Origin: Myxococcaceae bacterium
Lineage (GTDB): Bacteria > Myxococcota > Myxococcia > Myxococcales > Myxococcaceae
Reading direction: 5' to 3'
Length of the DNA: 40,976 nucleotides
Assembly: GCA_019686135.1 (NCBI GenBank)
Contig: JADGHL010000036.1
Span: 1 to 40,976 of the forward strand
The position numbers and the translations under genes are program-made. Position 1 is the first letter of the stretch. Every line of letters begins with the position of its first letter. Under the pieces are notes generated by a model. The model was not told the DNA's origin. It was given only the letters and a program-made list of their open reading frames with translations, and ran no database searches. Below, piece after piece: positions 33,673 to 40,976 of this stretch.

Positions 33673-35040
33673 CTATTTCGCCTTCACCAGCACGGCGCCG
33701 AAGAAGCCGTCGGTCCCGTGCAGGTGCGGGAACAGCCGCAGATAGCCATCGCGCGTCACGTTGGACGCGATTTCGGGTGGAAGCAGATTCTCCGCGGGCA
33801 TGACCGAGAACTCCGGATGCGCCCGCACGAAGTCGGCGACCACGTCCTCGTTCTCTTCGCGCAGGATGCTGCACGTTCCGTAGATCAACCGACCACCCGG
33901 CTTCACCATCACGCTGAAGCGCGCCAGAAGCTCCTTCTGCCGCTGGACGTAGGAGGTCAGATCCTCGGACGTGAGGCGGTAGCGCGCGTCGGGCTTGCGG
34001 CGGAAGGTCCCGGTCCCGCTGCACGGCGCGTCGACCAGCACCCGGTCCGCTTTGCCCGCGAGATCGGCGACGGCGGCGACCGCCTCCTTCCCGGTCGCCG
34101 GGATGACGCGGACGCGCGTGTTGTGGACCCCGGCGCGGCGCGCGCGGCGGCGCAGCTCCTCGAGCCGGCCCTCGTCTACGTCGAGCGCGAAGAGCTCGCC
34201 GCGGTTCTTCATGAACGCCGCGAGCTGCAGCGTCTTGCCGCCGGCGCCCGCGCACGCGTCCACCACCCGCGTGGGCGGAGGATCGACCAGCATCCCCAGA
34301 AGCTGGCTGCCTTCGTCCTGCAGCTCGAAGAGGCCGTCGCGGAACGCGCGGAGGGAGAATGCGTTGATGCGCGTCTGGAGCGTGATGCCGAGCGGCGACA
34401 GCCCGGTCGGCCGGCAGTCCACGCCCTCTTCGCGCAGCCGGTGCACCAGCTGTTCGCGGGTCGCCGCGAGCGTGTTCACCCGTGCGGTGAGCGGCGCGCG
34501 TTCGTTCATCGCCTCGGCCGCGCGCTCCGCCTCCGCGCCGAGCTGTTCGATGAAGCGCTGCGCGAGAAAGTTGGGCAGCGACGCCTGGATGGGAAAGCGC
34601 TCCTCGAAGGGGAGCGCCAGGAGCGCCTCGGCGGCGTCCGGAAGGCGCGACAGCGCGGCGGTGTCTTCGTCCGGTAACCGCTGCGTGCGCGCCACCTCGC
34701 GGGCGCTCTCGCCGTGCAGCACGCGGGAGGCGGCCAGCCGCAGCAGATCCTGCGGGGTGGCGGTCATCTGCACGAAGCCGGGCCGCACGCGCTCCAGCAT
34801 CCAGTCGACGGTGCGCTGCCGGCGGAGCAGCGCGTAGACGCGCTCGGCCACCGCGCGACGCTCGGACGCAAAGAGCTGCCGGTGGCTTCGGAGCATGAAG
34901 TCCAGCGCGCGGTCGGCGAGGCGCCCCTCGTGCCGGATGGCGCCATAGGCCTCCAGGGCTGCCTGGGTGACCAGATCCTCGCGCAACGGGCGCGCTGCGC
35001 CGGGAGCGTTCGACTTCTTGCGCGACGGGTGGGGAGACAT
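33673..35040 (-). CDS. rsmB: RsmB-like rRNA (cytosine-5) methyltransferase
   Basis: SAM-dependent m5C methyltransferase, 455 aa. The N-terminal 150 residues resemble the NusB-like RNA-binding domain of RsmB (RALDFMLRSHRQLFASERRAV, LLRLAASRVL) though divergent. The catalytic half shows the SAM loop DACAGAGGKT (261-270), the catalytic DAPCSGTGTFRRKPD with Cys340, and the second cysteine in YGTCSILREENE (Cys390). RsmB methylates C967 of 16S rRNA in E. coli; a different target is possible because the N-domain is atypical. The ATG at 35040 is the only suitable start. Confidence 0.88.
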   Translation of the reverse strand: MSPHPSRKKSNAPGAARPLREDLVTQAALEAYGAIRHEGRLADRALDFMLRSHRQLFASERRAVAERVYALLRRQRTVDWMLERVRPGFVQMTATPQDLLRLAASRVLHGESAREVARTQRLPDEDTAALSRLPDAAEALLALPFEERFPIQASLPNFLAQRFIEQLGAEAERAAEAMNERAPLTARVNTLAATREQLVHRLREEGVDCRPTGLSPLGITLQTRINAFSLRAFRDGLFELQDEGSQLLGMLVDPPPTRVVDACAGAGGKTLQLAAFMKNRGELFALDVDEGRLEELRRRARRAGVHNTRVRVIPATGKEAVAAVADLAGKADRVLVDAPCSGTGTFRRKPDARYRLTSEDLTSYVQRQKELLARFSVMVKPGGRLIYGTCSILREENEDVVADFVRAHPEFSVMPAENLLPPEIASNVTRDGYLRLFPHLHGTDGFFGAVLVKAK

Positions 35041-35122: not shown

Positions 35123-36748
35123 TTACGGCTGTCGGCACCGTCGCCGGGAGAGAAGCGTCAGGGCCAACAGGCTCAGTCCGGCGACGGCGGACACCGGCGA
35201 CGGCAGGGCGGTGCAGCCGGCGGCCGCTTCCTGTCCGGCATCGTCGGGCGGAGGCGCATTTCCGGGGGCGGGGCGGGTGTCGGATCCGGAGCTGTCTCCG
35301 GTGTCCTCTCCGGGTCGCGGGATTCCGCCGTCGGGAGGCGGTGGGGTGGTCCCGTTGCCGGACCGCACGGTCACGGTCGTGCTGGCGGTCGCAGTCTGAT
35401 CGCCGGAGGTCGCGGTGGCCTTTACGGTGTACTGGCCTGCGCTCTGGAAGGTGTGTTCCACGGTCGATCCGGTCGCGGTCGCGCCGTCGCCGAAGTCCCA
35501 GGCGATCGCCGCGTCACCGACATCGGAGGTCGCGGTGAAGTGGACGGTCAGCGGCGCCGGACCCTCCTGCGGCTCGGTGAGAAGCTGCAGCGTCGGCGGG
35601 GGCAGCGCCTTCTTCAGCGTGAAGACGTCCGGGGTCTGGCCGTCGACGGTCACCAGCTTGCCGGTGAGCGTCCCGCCCTCCACGGTCACGTCGAGGTACC
35701 CGAGGATGCCCGTGTGCTGCGCCGCGACCCACGACGGAGTGCCGCTGAAGTCGTACGCGCCGGCGCCGCCGGTGCCCACCACCAGGTACGTCACCGCTCC
35801 CGGCGTTCCTTCGGGGACCGGGACACCTCCCTTCATCGGCCGCGTGCGCTCGTAGTCGTGGTCGTGCCCGGTGAGGACCAGATCCACGCCGCCGGCCTCG
35901 AACACCGGCATCAGCGCCTGCATCGCCGGCGTCGAGCCGTGCTCGCCGCTCGAGTACACGGGGTGGTGGAAGCTGACGACCTTCCAGGGCGCGTGCGAGG
36001 CTGCGAGATCCTGCTCGAGCCATGCCTTCTGCGCAGCGGCGGTGCAGTCGCTGCTGCTCGTGCCCATCAGGCACATCGAGTCCAGCGAGACCACGTGCAC
36101 CGCGCCCCAGTCGAACGAGTAGTACCGCTCGCTCCCGGCAGGGTTGTTGGTGGGGAGTTGGAACGCGTCGAGGTAGGGCTGTGCCTTGTTGGTGATGTAC
36201 TCGTGGTTCCCCGGAGACGGGAACACGGGGACGTTGGCGAGCAGCGGCTTCATCGGCGCGAAGAAGCGCTGGTCGAAGTCGGACTCACTGCCGGACTCGT
36301 ACGCGTCGTCCCCGAGCGTGAGCCAGAACTCGGGGTGCGCCGCGGCGAGTGCATCCGCCACCTGCCGCTGCCTGGAGTCGCCGGTTCCGAAGTCGCCCAC
36401 CGCGGCGAAGTGGACGTGTCGCGCGCCGTCCTTCGGTGCGGTGGTGAAGCTGCCGCCGAGGCCGGTGTCCGCACCGCACGCCTCCACCTCGTAGGCGTAC
36501 CGGGTCGCCGGCTGCAGGCTCCCGAGCGTGACGAAGTGCTGGGTCGCGGCCGCGGACGACGCCGTCTGGGTGAGCTGATCCGGCGGGCCGAAGTGGACCT
36601 GGACGTCGCACGGAGCGTCCAGCCGGACGCCGATCACCGCCGAGTCCTGATCGACGTTCTGCACCGCGGGCCCGCGGGTGACGTCGGCCGCAAAGACCGG
36701 GGCAGCCACGAGGAGGGCGGAGAGGAGGAGGGGAATCCGAAGTGACAT
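35123..36748 (-). CDS. Secreted purple-acid-phosphatase-like phosphoesterase with PKD and MYXO-CTERM-like tail
   Basis: 541-aa exported phosphoesterase. It has a signal peptide (1-20), an Fn3-like purple-acid-phosphatase N-domain (about 22-104), and then a metallophosphoesterase domain with all five motifs: AVGDFGTGD (Asp119), LTLGDDAY (143-150), GNHEY (180-184), HHPVYSSG and GHDHDYE (294-300). A PKD domain (about 398-480, WDFGDGAT and HTFQSAGQYTV) is followed by a Pro/Gly/Asp linker. The tail has AAGCTALPS, a hydrophobic helix and SRRRCRQP, fitting a MYXO-CTERM anchor. So it likely works on the cell surface to release phosphate. It is on the same strand and 100 bases downstream of the VTC/kinase cluster. 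The ATG at 36748 has no ribosome-binding site; a hairpin abuts it. Confidence 0.87.
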   Translation of the reverse strand: MSLRIPLLLSALLVAAPVFAADVTRGPAVQNVDQDSAVIGVRLDAPCDVQVHFGPPDQLTQTASSAAATQHFVTLGSLQPATRYAYEVEACGADTGLGGSFTTAPKDGARHVHFAAVGDFGTGDSRQRQVADALAAAHPEFWLTLGDDAYESGSESDFDQRFFAPMKPLLANVPVFPSPGNHEYITNKAQPYLDAFQLPTNNPAGSERYYSFDWGAVHVVSLDSMCLMGTSSSDCTAAAQKAWLEQDLAASHAPWKVVSFHHPVYSSGEHGSTPAMQALMPVFEAGGVDLVLTGHDHDYERTRPMKGGVPVPEGTPGAVTYLVVGTGGAGAYDFSGTPSWVAAQHTGILGYLDVTVEGGTLTGKLVTVDGQTPDVFTLKKALPPPTLQLLTEPQEGPAPLTVHFTATSDVGDAAIAWDFGDGATATGSTVEHTFQSAGQYTVKATATSGDQTATASTTVTVRSGNGTTPPPPDGGIPRPGEDTGDSSGSDTRPAPGNAPPPDDAGQEAAAGCTALPSPVSAVAGLSLLALTLLSRRRCRQP

Positions 36749-36848: not shown

Positions 36849-37565
36849 TCACGGCTGGATCTCGAAGCGCACGAGCTCCTCGAGGCGCTCGCCGTCCTCG
36901 CGCACCTTGCCGATCCCCGCGACCAACCAGTAGTCGCGCACGTAGTCCTGCTTGTCGGTCCGCGTGCGGCGCAGGTGGAGCGCATGGGGGAACGTGCCCG
37001 CCGGCACGGTGACCGTCTCGTCGGTCGCTACCACCGTCCACACGAACGTCTTCTCCTTCGTGTCGAGGACGGCGCCGGAGGGGCTCTCCTCGACTTCGGT
37101 GGTGGTGCCCGCGTTCTGCCAGCCGGCCGGCTTCGGCACGGCGAGCGACTTCACCACCGGCGGCGTAAAGCGCGTCACCCGCGCGAGCGTGCCGCCGCGG
37201 GCATCCTCCTCCCGGATCCGGAACACCAGCCCCTCGTCGTCGACGATCTCGAAGCTGAGCTCGCTGAGGGACGGTTCCACGTTCTCGACCGCCACCGCGC
37301 TGACGCCGGGAGCGCCCGGCACCGCGCGCGGCCCGAGCACCGAGACGGTCTTCTCGAACGTCCCCGCCACGTCGTCGGTGATCCGGTACGTCCACGTGCT
37401 GCCCGTCGTCAGCGGGCACAGGCTCCCCGCCGTCCCGGGCTGGTTGAGCGCGCCCGGATCGGTCAGCCCGGGTCGTTCGCCTCCGGGCAGCGCGTCGTTC
37501 GGGCCTCCGCATGCGCAGACGAGCGTTGCGGCCAGCGCTGCCATTGTGACTCCGCTGCGACGCAT
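36849..37565 (-). CDS. Lipoprotein in the VTC/kinase cluster
   Basis: 238-aa exported protein. A short signal ends in VCAC with the likely lipidated Cys19. The body is beta-rich, opening with LCPLTTGSTWTYRITDD, a phrase common to small myxobacterial lipoproteins with a lipocalin/DUF3108-like fold, and later VTVPAGTFPHALHLRRTRTD and YWLVAGIGKVRED. Such proteins have no known activity. The ATG at 37565 overlaps the DUF4956 stop by one base (TGATG), so it is made together with that membrane protein and may be its envelope partner. This is the last gene of the tightly packed block. Confidence 0.75.
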   Translation of the reverse strand: MRRSGVTMAALAATLVCACGGPNDALPGGERPGLTDPGALNQPGTAGSLCPLTTGSTWTYRITDDVAGTFEKTVSVLGPRAVPGAPGVSAVAVENVEPSLSELSFEIVDDEGLVFRIREEDARGGTLARVTRFTPPVVKSLAVPKPAGWQNAGTTTEVEESPSGAVLDTKEKTFVWTVVATDETVTVPAGTFPHALHLRRTRTDKQDYVRDYWLVAGIGKVREDGERLEELVRFEIQP

Positions 37566-38227
37566 CAGGTCACCTCCTTCACTTCCTTGTCGGCCTTGGC
37601 CGGCGACAGCGTCCACTTGAGCCCGTTCAGCGCCGCGCCCGATTTCGAGAGCGCCTGCGCCACCCTCGCCGGATCCGCGCCTTCGAGCTCCAGCTCCAGC
37701 CGCTTCTTCAGAAGGTCCAGCGCGCACCGACGCACCAGCACGTTGCGCTCCGCCAGGACCCGGCGCATCGCCGCCTCGGTGCCGACCGGGTCCTCGCTCT
37801 CCGCCGCGATGGTGAACACCTGGCGCTCGTGGCCGCCAAGCAGATCCACGCCCACAAGCAAGAGCGCCACGAACCCGGCGCCCGCCGCGGCGAGCCCCAG
37901 GCTCCCATGTCCGCACGCCATCCCCAGGCCGATGAGCAGGAAGAGAATCGCCGCGTCCCGCGGATCCTTCAGCCCGGAACGGAAGCGCACGAAGCCACCC
38001 AAGCCCACCAGCCCGAAGGCCTTCGCCACGCTGTCGCCGATGACCACGGTGATCACCGCCGCCGCGGTGCACAGGAGGATCTGCGACTGCACCATTTCGC
38101 TCCGCGGCAGCGGCCGCCGGAGCAGCCACCGCCACGGGCGCAGCGAAATCAGCGCGCCGATCGCCGTGGCCGCAAGAAGTCGCGGAACCATCGTCGCCGC
38201 GCCGAGCTGCTCCCAGAAGGGCGTCAC
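37565..38227 (-). CDS. DUF4956/MgtC-like membrane protein
   Basis: 220-aa protein with about four membrane helices in residues 10-130. The region ends in a conserved turn LGGFVRFRSGLKDPRDAAIL (about 74-93) and then IGLGMACGHGSLGLAAAGAG. This motif is typical of DUF4956 and recalls MgtC. The C-terminal 90 residues are a soluble alpha/beta domain (TEAAMRRVLAERNVLVRRCALD). DUF4956 genes are known neighbours of VTC-type polyphosphate-polymerase genes in many bacteria, as here. The GTG at 38227 overlaps the kinase-repeat gene's stop by 4 bases (GTGA). Role unknown; a membrane partner of the VTC domain is inferred. Confidence 0.78.
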   Translation of the reverse strand: MTPFWEQLGAATMVPRLLAATAIGALISLRPWRWLLRRPLPRSEMVQSQILLCTAAAVITVVIGDSVAKAFGLVGLGGFVRFRSGLKDPRDAAILFLLIGLGMACGHGSLGLAAAGAGFVALLLVGVDLLGGHERQVFTIAAESEDPVGTEAAMRRVLAERNVLVRRCALDLLKKRLELELEGADPARVAQALSKSGAALNGLKWTLSPAKADKEVKEVT

Positions 38228-39930
38228 GACGCGGCCGCCTCCGCCGCCGGGCCGGCTCCGGCGCGCGGCCCCGGCCCACCGTCGGCGTTCGTCTCGGGCA
38301 TCGCCCCCACTCGCGCCAGCGCGAGGTACGCGTTCCGGAGCACCGCCACCCGGCCCGGGTTGTGAGAGAGCACCTGTTCGATGAGCGCCTGCCCGCGCGC
38401 GGTGAGCGCCAGCTCGCGCAGCGAGGAGATCGCCGTGGAGGGCCACAGGTACCAGAAGCGCTCGCGCAGCGCCCACGCCTGTGGCACGGACATTCCATCC
38501 ACCGAGTCCAGGGCCTCCTTCGTCCGCGGCGCTTGCTCGGCTCGCATCCGCCACGCCCACGGCGCGTCGATGCCGGTCAACGAGCGCAGCACGACCTTCG
38601 GCGCCATCTCGTAGAGCGATTCGCGCAGCGTCCGCGCGAACGGGGTCTCCAGTCCCGTGGTGCTCCGGAGCACCGCGAGCCGATCGCGGGACACAAGCTC
38701 CGCCCGGAGCGCGTCCGCCCGCTCGCCGGCGACACCGGTGAGGCTGCGCGCGAGCGCCGTCCACAGCCGGCGCTCCAGCGCCATCGTCCGAAGCGCCCAG
38801 CTCCGATCGGAGTCCACACCGCTAAGGCCGAAAAGCACGCCCTCCACGTCGCCCTGGCGCACGGCCCGCTCCCGGAGCGCCCACGCGCGGTCCGAGTCCA
38901 TCCCCTTGAGGCCGATCACTGCCTGCCGCGGCGCCACTTCGAAGAGCGCTTCGCGTAAAGCCATCGCCCGCAAAGAGGGATCCGCGCCCAGCGACGCCAG
39001 GACCTCCCGGGGTGCCGCCTTCGCCAGAAGCTCGCGAAGCTGTTCGCTCTCCGGATCGCCGAGGCCCAGCAGCGTCCGCGCCACGGCGCCCGGCTTCTGG
39101 TCGACGAAGCGCAGCCGCCGCTGATGCGCTCTGGCGCCGGGGACACCAGTGAGCAGGTAGAGCGCAAGGTCCGGCTCGCGCAGCTCCAGCTCGTCCACCG
39201 CGGTGAAGAAGGTAGCCTCGAGGTTCTGCAGGCAGACCGCGGGCCGCTGCGTGCTGCCGGCGTTGATCCGCTGCACCTCCGGTTCGCGGCCCTCGAGCCG
39301 GGCGCGCACCGCCTCGACGATCCGGTCCGCCAGCGCGCTCAGGGGTTGGTGGTCGTTCTCCACCACCAGCCAGCGCTGGCGATCCTTCGAGGCCATCTGG
39401 AGGAAGGCCTCGCGCACCCGCACCGCGAGCCCCGCGCCCACCAGCCCCTTGCGGCTGCCGGGTTCGAGCTCGTCCAGTCCCAGCCTCAGGACCCGCTTGC
39501 GTAGCCGCGCCAGCTCGGGGTCGACGTCGACGAGGATCACCAGATCTGGCCACACGCCCTGCGCGGCGAGCTCCAGCACGGGATCGAGCGCTTCACGCGG
39601 AAGGCCGCGGCCGGCGTGGGAGTGGGCCAGCTGCGAGTAGAGATAGCGGTCGGCGATCACCACCTCGCCGCGCGCCAGCGCCGGGCGGATCACCTCCTCC
39701 AGTTGCTGCGCGTCGCGGGCGACGTTGAGCAGAAACTCGGTGCGCGCGCACATCTCCAGAAGTGACGGATCGCGGGTCAGCTCCCGGAGCCTCCGGGCGA
39801 TGGTCGCCTTGAGCTCGCCACCCTCGCGCGCGTGGGTGACCCGGTGCCCCATCCGCCTGAGCCGCTCGGCGAGGAGATTGGACAGCGTGGTCTTTCCGCT
39901 GCCGTCGATGCCTTCGAAGTCGATGAACAC
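38224..39930 (-). CDS. Thymidylate-kinase-like P-loop protein fused to about nine repeats
   Basis: 568-aa protein with two parts. Residues 1-212 are a TMK-fold kinase: FIDFEGIDGSGKTTLSNLL with Walker A (7-14), the DRYLYSQLAH motif (94-103) and VILVDVDPELARLRKR before the lid. After a linker, residues about 260-503 form nine degenerate 26-28-residue repeats of the form L-x-G-h-D-x3-A-x-x-L-R...V-L-x-S, for example LSGVDSDRSWALR, then an Ala/Gly/Pro tail. Such fusions are unusual; housekeeping TMK is about 210 aa. It may be the cell's dTMP kinase, or a kinase with another phosphate acceptor. The GTG at 39930 is 3 bases after the VTC stop. Confidence 0.85.
   Translation of the reverse strand: MFIDFEGIDGSGKTTLSNLLAERLRRMGHRVTHAREGGELKATIARRLRELTRDPSLLEMCARTEFLLNVARDAQQLEEVIRPALARGEVVIADRYLYSQLAHSHAGRGLPREALDPVLELAAQGVWPDLVILVDVDPELARLRKRVLRLGLDELEPGSRKGLVGAGLAVRVREAFLQMASKDRQRWLVVENDHQPLSALADRIVEAVRARLEGREPEVQRINAGSTQRPAVCLQNLEATFFTAVDELELREPDLALYLLTGVPGARAHQRRLRFVDQKPGAVARTLLGLGDPESEQLRELLAKAAPREVLASLGADPSLRAMALREALFEVAPRQAVIGLKGMDSDRAWALRERAVRQGDVEGVLFGLSGVDSDRSWALRTMALERRLWTALARSLTGVAGERADALRAELVSRDRLAVLRSTTGLETPFARTLRESLYEMAPKVVLRSLTGIDAPWAWRMRAEQAPRTKEALDSVDGMSVPQAWALRERFWYLWPSTAISSLRELALTARGQALIEQVLSHNPGRVAVLRNAYLALARVGAMPETNADGGPGPRAGAGPAAEAAAS
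38422..39153 (-). repeat. Nine degenerate 27-residue protein repeats
   Basis: Coding repeats in the C-terminal half of the kinase-fusion gene (residues about 260-503). Unit starts are near residues 260, 287, 313, 340, 368, 396, 423, 450 and 476. Each has a Gly two residues after the start, an Ala-x-x-Leu-Arg core and a Val-Leu-x-Ser close. The pattern is helical and resembles HEAT- or Sel1-like solenoids, but matches no family I can name. Copies are diverged, so the array is old. Confidence 0.75.
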
Positions 39931-39933
39931 GCG

Positions 39934-40647
39934 CTAGCCTCCCGACGCCGCCAACCCTGCCGCCGTCATGCCCAGCTGCCTCATCCCGGTGGCGAATTTG
40001 CTGAACGCCACCGTCGCCTCCGCCCGCAGCGCGCCGAGCCACCGCGGTAGCGCCTCGTCGAGGTGCTTGACCTCCACCACCACGCCATCCGCGCAGCTCA
40101 CCGGCGCGTCCAGGCCGGTTGCGCGCAGCGGCCTCGGCCCGAGCGCCGCCGCGGGATCGACGCGGTGGAAGGACACGCGTTGATCCACCGTGACCCGCCA
40201 CGACTCGGAGAGCTGGTAGACGTCGCGCAGGTAGCTCACCGCCAGCACCGGAGTGAGCCCGCACGTGTCGGAGAAGGGGAGGCGGGTCCACAGCTCGCCG
40301 CGCTCGTACAGCGCGCCTAGCTCCTCCCGCGCGACCCACGTCCGCAGCTTCTTTGTGAGCCCATCCCGCTCGCGCTTCACCTCCACGACCACCCGCGGTT
40401 CCGCCGAGCCCAGGTCCGGCGCGTACTCCTTAAGGCGCACCTTGAGACAGTCACGCGGCATGGCGAGCGCCCGCCGGGTGAGCGGGAAGCCGGCGCCATC
40501 GAAGTACACCGAGACGATCTCCGTCCGGGTGGCAGGGGCCTCGGCTTGCAACCTGGCACACAGCGCCATCGCCGCCTCCACCGACATCACCAGCTTGAAC
40601 TCGTGCCGAAGCCGCGTCACCGCACCTTCAGCCAACGCGCACGCCAT
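39934..40647 (-). CDS. VTC-domain polyphosphate-polymerase-type protein
   Basis: 237-aa triphosphate-tunnel (TTM) protein of the VTC type, the fold that in yeast Vtc4 makes polyphosphate from ATP. Tunnel residues recur in the expected strand order: RHEFKLV (14-20), VSVYFD (45-50), LKVRLKEY (68-75), VVVEVKRERDGLTKKLR (86-102), VLAVSYLRD with Arg141, VVVEVKH (189-195) with the metal-binding Glu192, and FSKF with Lys217. So it looks catalytically intact, unlike the copy at 22040-22735. No membrane helix is visible. The ATG at 40647 follows a G-rich stretch. It is followed after 3 bases by the kinase fusion and preceded by a porin-like gene 35 bases upstream. Confidence 0.85.
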   Translation of the reverse strand: MACALAEGAVTRLRHEFKLVMSVEAAMALCARLQAEAPATRTEIVSVYFDGAGFPLTRRALAMPRDCLKVRLKEYAPDLGSAEPRVVVEVKRERDGLTKKLRTWVAREELGALYERGELWTRLPFSDTCGLTPVLAVSYLRDVYQLSESWRVTVDQRVSFHRVDPAAALGPRPLRATGLDAPVSCADGVVVEVKHLDEALPRWLGALRAEATVAFSKFATGMRQLGMTAAGLAASGG

Positions 40648-40682
40648 TTTCCGTTCCCCCCGCCACCCTCACCGCCTGGGCG

Positions 40683-40976
40683 TCAGAACCGCGCGGCCAG
40701 CTGCACCGCGAAGCGGTTCTGGAGCCCAGCGTCTCCCGGGAACAGCCCCCGCTCGCCCTGGACCATCAGCTTCACCCGTTCGACGTAGTGGACGTTCACC
40801 CCGAGCACCGCCGCCTTTCCCGACCCGCTCACTTCGCCCCGCTGCTGGAGCCCTTCGGCACCCACCACCGGCCCCACCGCCCAAAGCCCGCGTTCGCCCA
40901 GCGGCAACCGCCAGGTGGCGGTGACGATCTGCGCCGTGAAGTGGCCGCCCACCACCCGCCCGAACAGGCCCTCCGC
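40683..40976 (-). CDS. C-terminal end of an outer-membrane porin-like protein (partial)
   Basis: The last 97 residues of a protein whose start is beyond the right edge; the frame is open to the window end. It shows amphipathic beta strands (TAQIVTATWRLPLGERGLW, AAVLGVNVHYVERVKLMVQG) and ends in RFAVQLAARF with the terminal Phe needed for outer-membrane insertion. The late phrase Y-x-x-x-VKLM followed by a short loop and a final NRF strand resembles OprO/OprP phosphate-selective porins, which would suit the VTC and phosphatase neighbours, but so little is visible that this is a guess. It precedes the VTC gene on the same strand. Confidence 0.6.
   Translation of the reverse strand, partial: AEGLFGRVVGGHFTAQIVTATWRLPLGERGLWAVGPVVGAEGLQQRGEVSGSGKAAVLGVNVHYVERVKLMVQGERGLFPGDAGLQNRFAVQLAARF

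Follow-up and report, generated by a model that had tools for sequence, protein, structure and literature searches.

What does a myxobacterium gain from a gene block that joins a VTC-domain protein, a relative of thymidylate kinase (Tmk) and an outer-membrane porin? The question is raised by one end of contig JADGHL010000036.1 of a Myxococcaceae bacterium (assembly GCA_019686135.1). The entire contig, 40,976 bases long, is the window analysed here, and the source genome measures 5.5 Mb and is 97% complete. Beginning at the contig edge, an operon on the minus strand runs from a porin through a VTC-domain protein, a kinase-like protein with helical repeats (the TMK-repeat protein, TMKrep) and a DUF4956 membrane protein to a lipoprotein. 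An earlier note on this DNA had proposed a polyphosphate-linked envelope system in which TMKrep takes the slot of a CotH kinase. We confirm that the block is a real, conserved unit beyond chance. What it does is less certain: our tentative answer, held at somewhat short of even confidence, is that it may make polyphosphate and export it through the cell envelope.

The unit comprises the following features, with Pfam scores to be read against cut-offs (in bits) of 23 for VTC, 27 for Thymidylate_kin and 30.6 for DUF4956:

40683..40976, minus strand: porin-like outer-membrane protein, C-terminal part, truncated by the contig end; C-termini alike (30-51% identity) in 20 related loci
39934..40647, minus strand: VTC-domain protein, triphosphate-tunnel fold, soluble, 237 residues; PF09359, 58.2 bits
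38224..39930, minus strand: TMK-solenoid protein (TMKrep), 568 residues; Thymidylate_kin, 85.7 bits
39295..39930, minus strand: kinase domain of TMKrep, residues 1-212; from alignment to canonical Tmk and Foldseek
38296..39222, minus strand: about ten 27-residue alpha-alpha repeats of TMKrep, within residues 237-545; from the repeat stack and model helices
37565..38227, minus strand: DUF4956 membrane protein, four transmembrane helices and a ferredoxin/ACT-like C-terminal domain; PF16316, 35.2 bits, and structure model
36849..37565, minus strand: lipoprotein with lipobox VCAC, DUF3108-like in relatives; invariant Cys18 and motif in relatives

A conserved unit

The five genes are tightly packed, with intergenic distances of +35 (porin/VTC), +3 (VTC/TMKrep), -4 (TMKrep/DUF4956) and -1 bases (DUF4956/lipoprotein). 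The last three agree with the same-strand block described in the earlier note, whose range has the lipoprotein as its first gene; the porin belongs to the full unit as well. TMKrep was searched against 98 relatives, many of which carry full-length orthologs at 51-61% identity, alongside a second set that is about 40% identical. The order porin-VTC-TMKrep-DUF4956 was retained in all 20 ortholog loci that were fetched first, which bears out the claim of one conserved unit on the very point, order in related genomes, that had been named beforehand as able to refute it. The spacing between VTC and TMKrep is 3-9 bases in all ortholog loci, and 17 of the 20 were found to have the lipoprotein. The same order recurs, as far as contigs extend, in 30 named records from Archangium, Hyalangium, Corallococcus, Pyxidicoccus, Myxococcus (including M. 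xanthus AM003), Citreicoccus and Anaeromyxobacter, a count that overlaps with the first, since some genomes are present in both sets.

Across 195 Myxococcota genomes, TMKrep occurs in 75, VTC in 94 and DUF4956 in 110. Every genome with VTC also has DUF4956 (94/94), as do 74 of the 75 with TMKrep, the exception being G059. Five TMKrep genomes have no Pfam match to VTC; three of them (G041, G067 and G085) have VTC in the block by tblastn, and in a fourth, G129, the TMKrep match begins at the contig edge.

A scan of 84,980 species with the TMK-repeat pattern, which reaches close relatives only, returned myxobacteria and one record labelled Comamonas. In that record (L091, Comamonas sp. KCTC 72670, contig of 767,272 bases) both the block and the length of the contig equal those in the myxobacterial genome G041, and the record is probably mislabelled or contaminated. 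Separately, the TMK-repeat gene of G059 (L066:9062-10723) adjoins rsmB, has neither VTC nor DUF4956 as a neighbour and may be a relict or have an independent role.

The VTC protein and its proposed membrane partner

The VTC product and 17 of 17 orthologs match PF09359. VTC rather than CYTH is its top profile, and a PDB search with the protein's own profile reaches yeast Vtc4 at E=6e-5. Within its 237 residues Pfam finds the VTC domain alone, without a transmembrane segment or SPX. The tunnel residues E16-K18, R71-K73, E89-K91, R141, R151, E192-K194 and S216-K217 are invariant in the 17 orthologs. Among these, R71-x-K73 and E192-x-K194 are of the Vtc4 R264/R266/E426 class; the E426 equivalence comes from the Vtc4 alignment, and that of R264/R266 is judged from order, the second arginine being a lysine here. 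In yeast, Vtc4 is inactivated by R264A/R266A/E426N (PMC9911596), and in the VTC complex synthesis and passage through the membrane are coupled (PMC9911596, PMC10657179). Together with the complete co-occurrence described above, the invariant tunnel residues uphold the earlier identification of a VTC-type polymerase fold with a DUF4956 partner. The source genome encodes PPK1 elsewhere; the module is thus not needed as sole polyphosphate maker, and the presence of PPK1 argues that it does not serve bulk storage.

The DUF4956 protein is modelled, with medium confidence (predicted local distance difference test, pLDDT, 73.6), as four transmembrane helices followed by a ferredoxin/ACT-like domain. 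It carries the conserved motif AFxLVGLGxFxRFxSxxKDxRDAA and has no PDB homolog by sequence. Its C-terminal domain resembles, in a weak fold match, the C-terminal domains of MgtC proteins; its transmembrane region scores 20.1 bits against the MgtC profile, under the cut-off of 31.4, and the protein stands outside MgtC in its own family, PF16316. The ACT-like domain is missing from the DUF4956 genes of L050-L054 (Anaeromyxobacter-type loci and G084), where the block is retained.

The kinase-solenoid protein

The kinase region of TMKrep matches an NCBIfam equivalog with 102 bits as well as Pfam Thymidylate_kin. In the AlphaFold2 model (pLDDT 91.8), a TMK fold is followed by the helix-helix repeats, whose consensus is LTGxDxxxAWALRExxxxxAPxxVLxSL, and the best Foldseek matches of the first domain are bacterial thymidylate kinases (TMt 0.8-0.9). 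Pfam assigns no family to the repeat in any of the 22 members scanned, and a sequence search of the PDB gives no match to it. The protein is without a signal peptide.

A role as housekeeping dTMP kinase was considered and rejected. A separate canonical tmk lies elsewhere in the genome (G000:C42) and scores 142.7 bits versus 88.2 for TMKrep, which means that dTDP supply does not depend on the module; the concern that the fusion might simply be the only such kinase is thereby removed, and its strong co-occurrence with VTC and DUF4956 points the same way. Aligned with its own genome's canonical Tmk and that of Pseudomonas aeruginosa, TMKrep retains the P-loop GIDGSGKT and the DR motif. The AYQ motif (after DRY) and the REP motif, which face thymine in Tmk, are replaced in 30 of 30 aligned TMKrep proteins; the P. 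aeruginosa enzyme has both, and the canonical Tmk of the source genome has AYQ. In the lid, nearly all 30 members carry a new conserved stretch, SRKG(L)xGxG. TMKrep is probably a kinase whose acceptor has changed, or else a sensor, and apparently represents an undescribed kinase-solenoid family.

Related modules with exchangeable parts

The arrangement in the window, which we call module A, has relatives that differ in their envelope components. Module B (CotH-VTC-porin-TMKrep-DUF4956, with a porin of the Porin_O_P type) is a paralogous, rearranged second copy of the unit, found complete in 12 loci and occurring in a subset of the same family. One genome has it split into CotH-TMKrep-DUF4956 and VTC-porin (L060 and L125), and in two others (L127 and L128) it is followed by an RCQ lipoprotein (our own label, from the C-terminus of the protein), a PPDK_N lipoprotein and a homolog of the window lipoprotein. 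Module C, found in relatives without TMKrep, reads LTD (lamin-tail) lipoprotein-RCQ lipoprotein-PPDK_N lipoprotein-VTC-DUF4956-HlyD-type adaptor-TolC-type channel. It is intact in L119 (6153-14343), L120 and L122, has its lipoprotein genes rearranged in L121 and is cut by a contig end in L123; this tight block apparently includes a full export conduit. In further Myxococcota families the neighbours of VTC-DUF4956 are HlyD proteins, fusions of CotH with a beta-helix, and homologs of the window lipoprotein. Large proteins with CotH and a right-handed beta-helix stand beside VTC and DUF4956 at L141:10380-13202 and L143:7377-10025.

Because the partners vary across modules A, B and C and the other families, VTC-DUF4956 is the constant core; outer-membrane channels and lipoproteins are exchangeable, and TMKrep accompanies the porin type.

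The porin identity is upheld by full-length relatives with signal peptides that sit directly 5' of VTC. Of 16 porin relatives in module A loci, 4 match Porin_O_P (PF07396, phosphate-selective porin) weakly, and the fragment in the window has no match; both module B porins tested match it. By sequence, the porin has no PDB homolog. In the lipoprotein, Cys18 and a GKVxExGER motif are invariant in 19 relatives, and a homolog adjoins PPDK_N lipoproteins in module B loci (E=9e-17). Neither the lipoprotein nor the porin fragment of the window has a Pfam match of its own.

Neighbouring genes and upstream region

Beyond the lipoprotein, on the same strand, lie two genes that are usually downstream of the unit:

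35123..36748, minus strand: secreted metallophosphatase with PKD domain and C-terminal anchor; Pfam Metallophos (63.9 bits, cut-off 21.5) and PKD; a frequent neighbour, outside the core
33673..35040, minus strand: rsmB-like rRNA methyltransferase, named from sequence; the usual downstream neighbour, outside the unit

In the fetched ortholog loci a phosphatase was found in 14 of 20 and rsmB in 12 of 20. The phosphatase was considered as a core member and rejected, its position not being fixed: in 3 of the 14 loci that have one it lies upstream on the opposite strand, as in Anaeromyxobacter. On the other side of the unit, a GTGGGAACTTTCnTTCCC-like element stands 147-188 bases before the porin start in L036, L038, L044, L046 and L039; considered as a conserved GGAACTTTC-type promoter element, it was set aside, being present in just 5 of 18 loci.

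A proposed export model and its alternatives

Our tentative model takes VTC as the maker of polyphosphate, DUF4956 as its carrier across the inner membrane and the outer-membrane channel as its exit. VTC would polymerise polyphosphate from ATP at the inner membrane, and DUF4956, with its four helices, would be the membrane partner that passes on the growing chain, as in yeast VTC. The porin, replaced elsewhere by HlyD-TolC, would take polyphosphate through the outer membrane, where lipoproteins may hold or use it. TMKrep would act in the cytoplasm as a P-loop kinase carried on a helical scaffold; it would have lost its specificity for dTMP and may couple to or regulate VTC-DUF4956 in porin-type modules. 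From gene order, co-occurrence, domains and residues we infer all of these activities, and the HlyD-TolC version points to export, in contrast to the phosphate uptake suggested in the earlier note.

Several points weigh against this model. The family assignment of the porin is weak, given the few relatives that reach Porin_O_P, and a porin could equally serve uptake. The DUF4956 matches include none to a Vtc1 transmembrane domain, and the structure model has medium confidence only. An activity of any bacterial VTC was not found in the open-access papers searched. The co-occurrence counts are confounded by common descent, and G059 retains TMKrep with neither VTC nor DUF4956 detected in its genome.

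A possible but somewhat unlikely alternative turns the direction around: the porin would admit phosphate, at the inner membrane VTC would convert it into a polyphosphate store, DUF4956 would be an MgtC-like regulator and the phosphatase would supply the phosphate. The porin relatives that match the phosphate-selective family, the phosphatase often found downstream and the MgtC-like features of DUF4956 all suit this scheme. Yet no Pho-box-like repeat was found upstream of the porin in the 16 loci examined, the position of the phosphatase varies, the genome already has PPK1 and related modules use HlyD-TolC, an export pair.

VTC might instead be a triphosphate-tunnel enzyme with nucleotides or inorganic triphosphate as substrate; TMKrep would then serve the same signalling or salvage step as its nucleotide kinase, and DUF4956 would sense the product. 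The tunnel-enzyme class covers several activities, the VTC product is small and without the fused transmembrane and SPX parts of yeast VTC, and the kinase gene follows within a few bases. We consider this unlikely, since the best profile is VTC rather than CYTH, the VTC-DUF4956 pair occurs without the TMK-repeat in other families, and the lipoproteins and outer-membrane channels would be left unexplained.

The module could also make or modify a surface polysaccharide, with VTC supplying its phosphate groups. This fits the CotH-VTC-DUF4956 genes adjoining Pel operons in streptococci and clostridia (PMC7112168), and some Myxococcota VTC loci in which CotH-beta-helix fusions occur together with a porin of the alginate-export type on the opposite strand. 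It is nevertheless quite unlikely: a reading of the fetched loci of modules A and B, with their flanking genes scanned in part, revealed no glycosyltransferase.

That TMKrep substitutes for a CotH kinase, as the earlier note held, is extremely improbable. A kinase-fold gene does lie between VTC and DUF4956, and no CotH was seen in the window operon (where the contig ends inside the porin) or its orthologs, but module B carries CotH and TMKrep together, which contradicts the idea; CotH there begins with a lipoprotein signal and TMKrep has none, so the two are expected to work on opposite sides of the membrane; the source genome keeps one CotH elsewhere; and VTC-DUF4956 loci free of TMKrep may carry CotH, PPDK_N lipoproteins or HlyD/TolC.

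Returning to the export model, a broader version of it is conceivable, though quite unlikely in full. VTC-DUF4956 pairs would be polyphosphate synthase-exporters that feed extracytoplasmic phosphotransfer proteins (CotH and PPDK_N lipoproteins) with a phosphoryl donor or polymer, and TMKrep would be a dedicated regulator or primer-maker of the porin type. The attraction of exported polyphosphate as donor is that there is no ATP outside the cell.

Relation to known systems

Adjacent VTC, DUF4956 and CotH genes are already known. An accessory set of CotH-VTC('PPP')-DUF4956(-DUF4832) adjoins pel operons of Streptococcus and Clostridium (PMC7112168). The likeness lies in VTC and DUF4956 sharing one cluster (with TMKrep between them in the window) and in the CotH of module B, whereas the window module has a TMK-solenoid, an outer-membrane porin and a lipoprotein, and no pel genes were seen in it. 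With the yeast VTC complex (Vtc1/2/3/4) the module shares the catalytic triphosphate-tunnel fold with its tunnel residues and, we propose, partnership with a membrane channel; the bacterial VTC differs in being soluble, and, as far as tested, the sequence of DUF4956 shows no relation to the Vtc1 transmembrane domain. TMKrep and bacterial Tmk have the P-loop nucleoside monophosphate kinase fold in common and differ in the lost motifs, the new lid and a helical-repeat extension of about 340 residues. PPK2, described as a TMK relative (PMC8776046), has that fold too, but TMKrep shows no PPK2 among its Pfam matches up to E=0.1. A search limited to open-access papers (subscription papers and preprints lay outside it) turned up no description of the porin-VTC-TMK-solenoid-DUF4956-lipoprotein arrangement, of the TMK-solenoid family or of the version with HlyD-TolC.

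Significance

Bacterial VTC genes with DUF4956 partners are annotated with names such as 'polyphosphate polymerase', and we found no open-access paper that shows their role. Myxobacterial modules add to this group an apparently undescribed kinase-solenoid family. Swappable outer-membrane parts, porin in some modules and HlyD-TolC in others, around a constant VTC-DUF4956 core give a testable export hypothesis in the genetically tractable Myxococcus.

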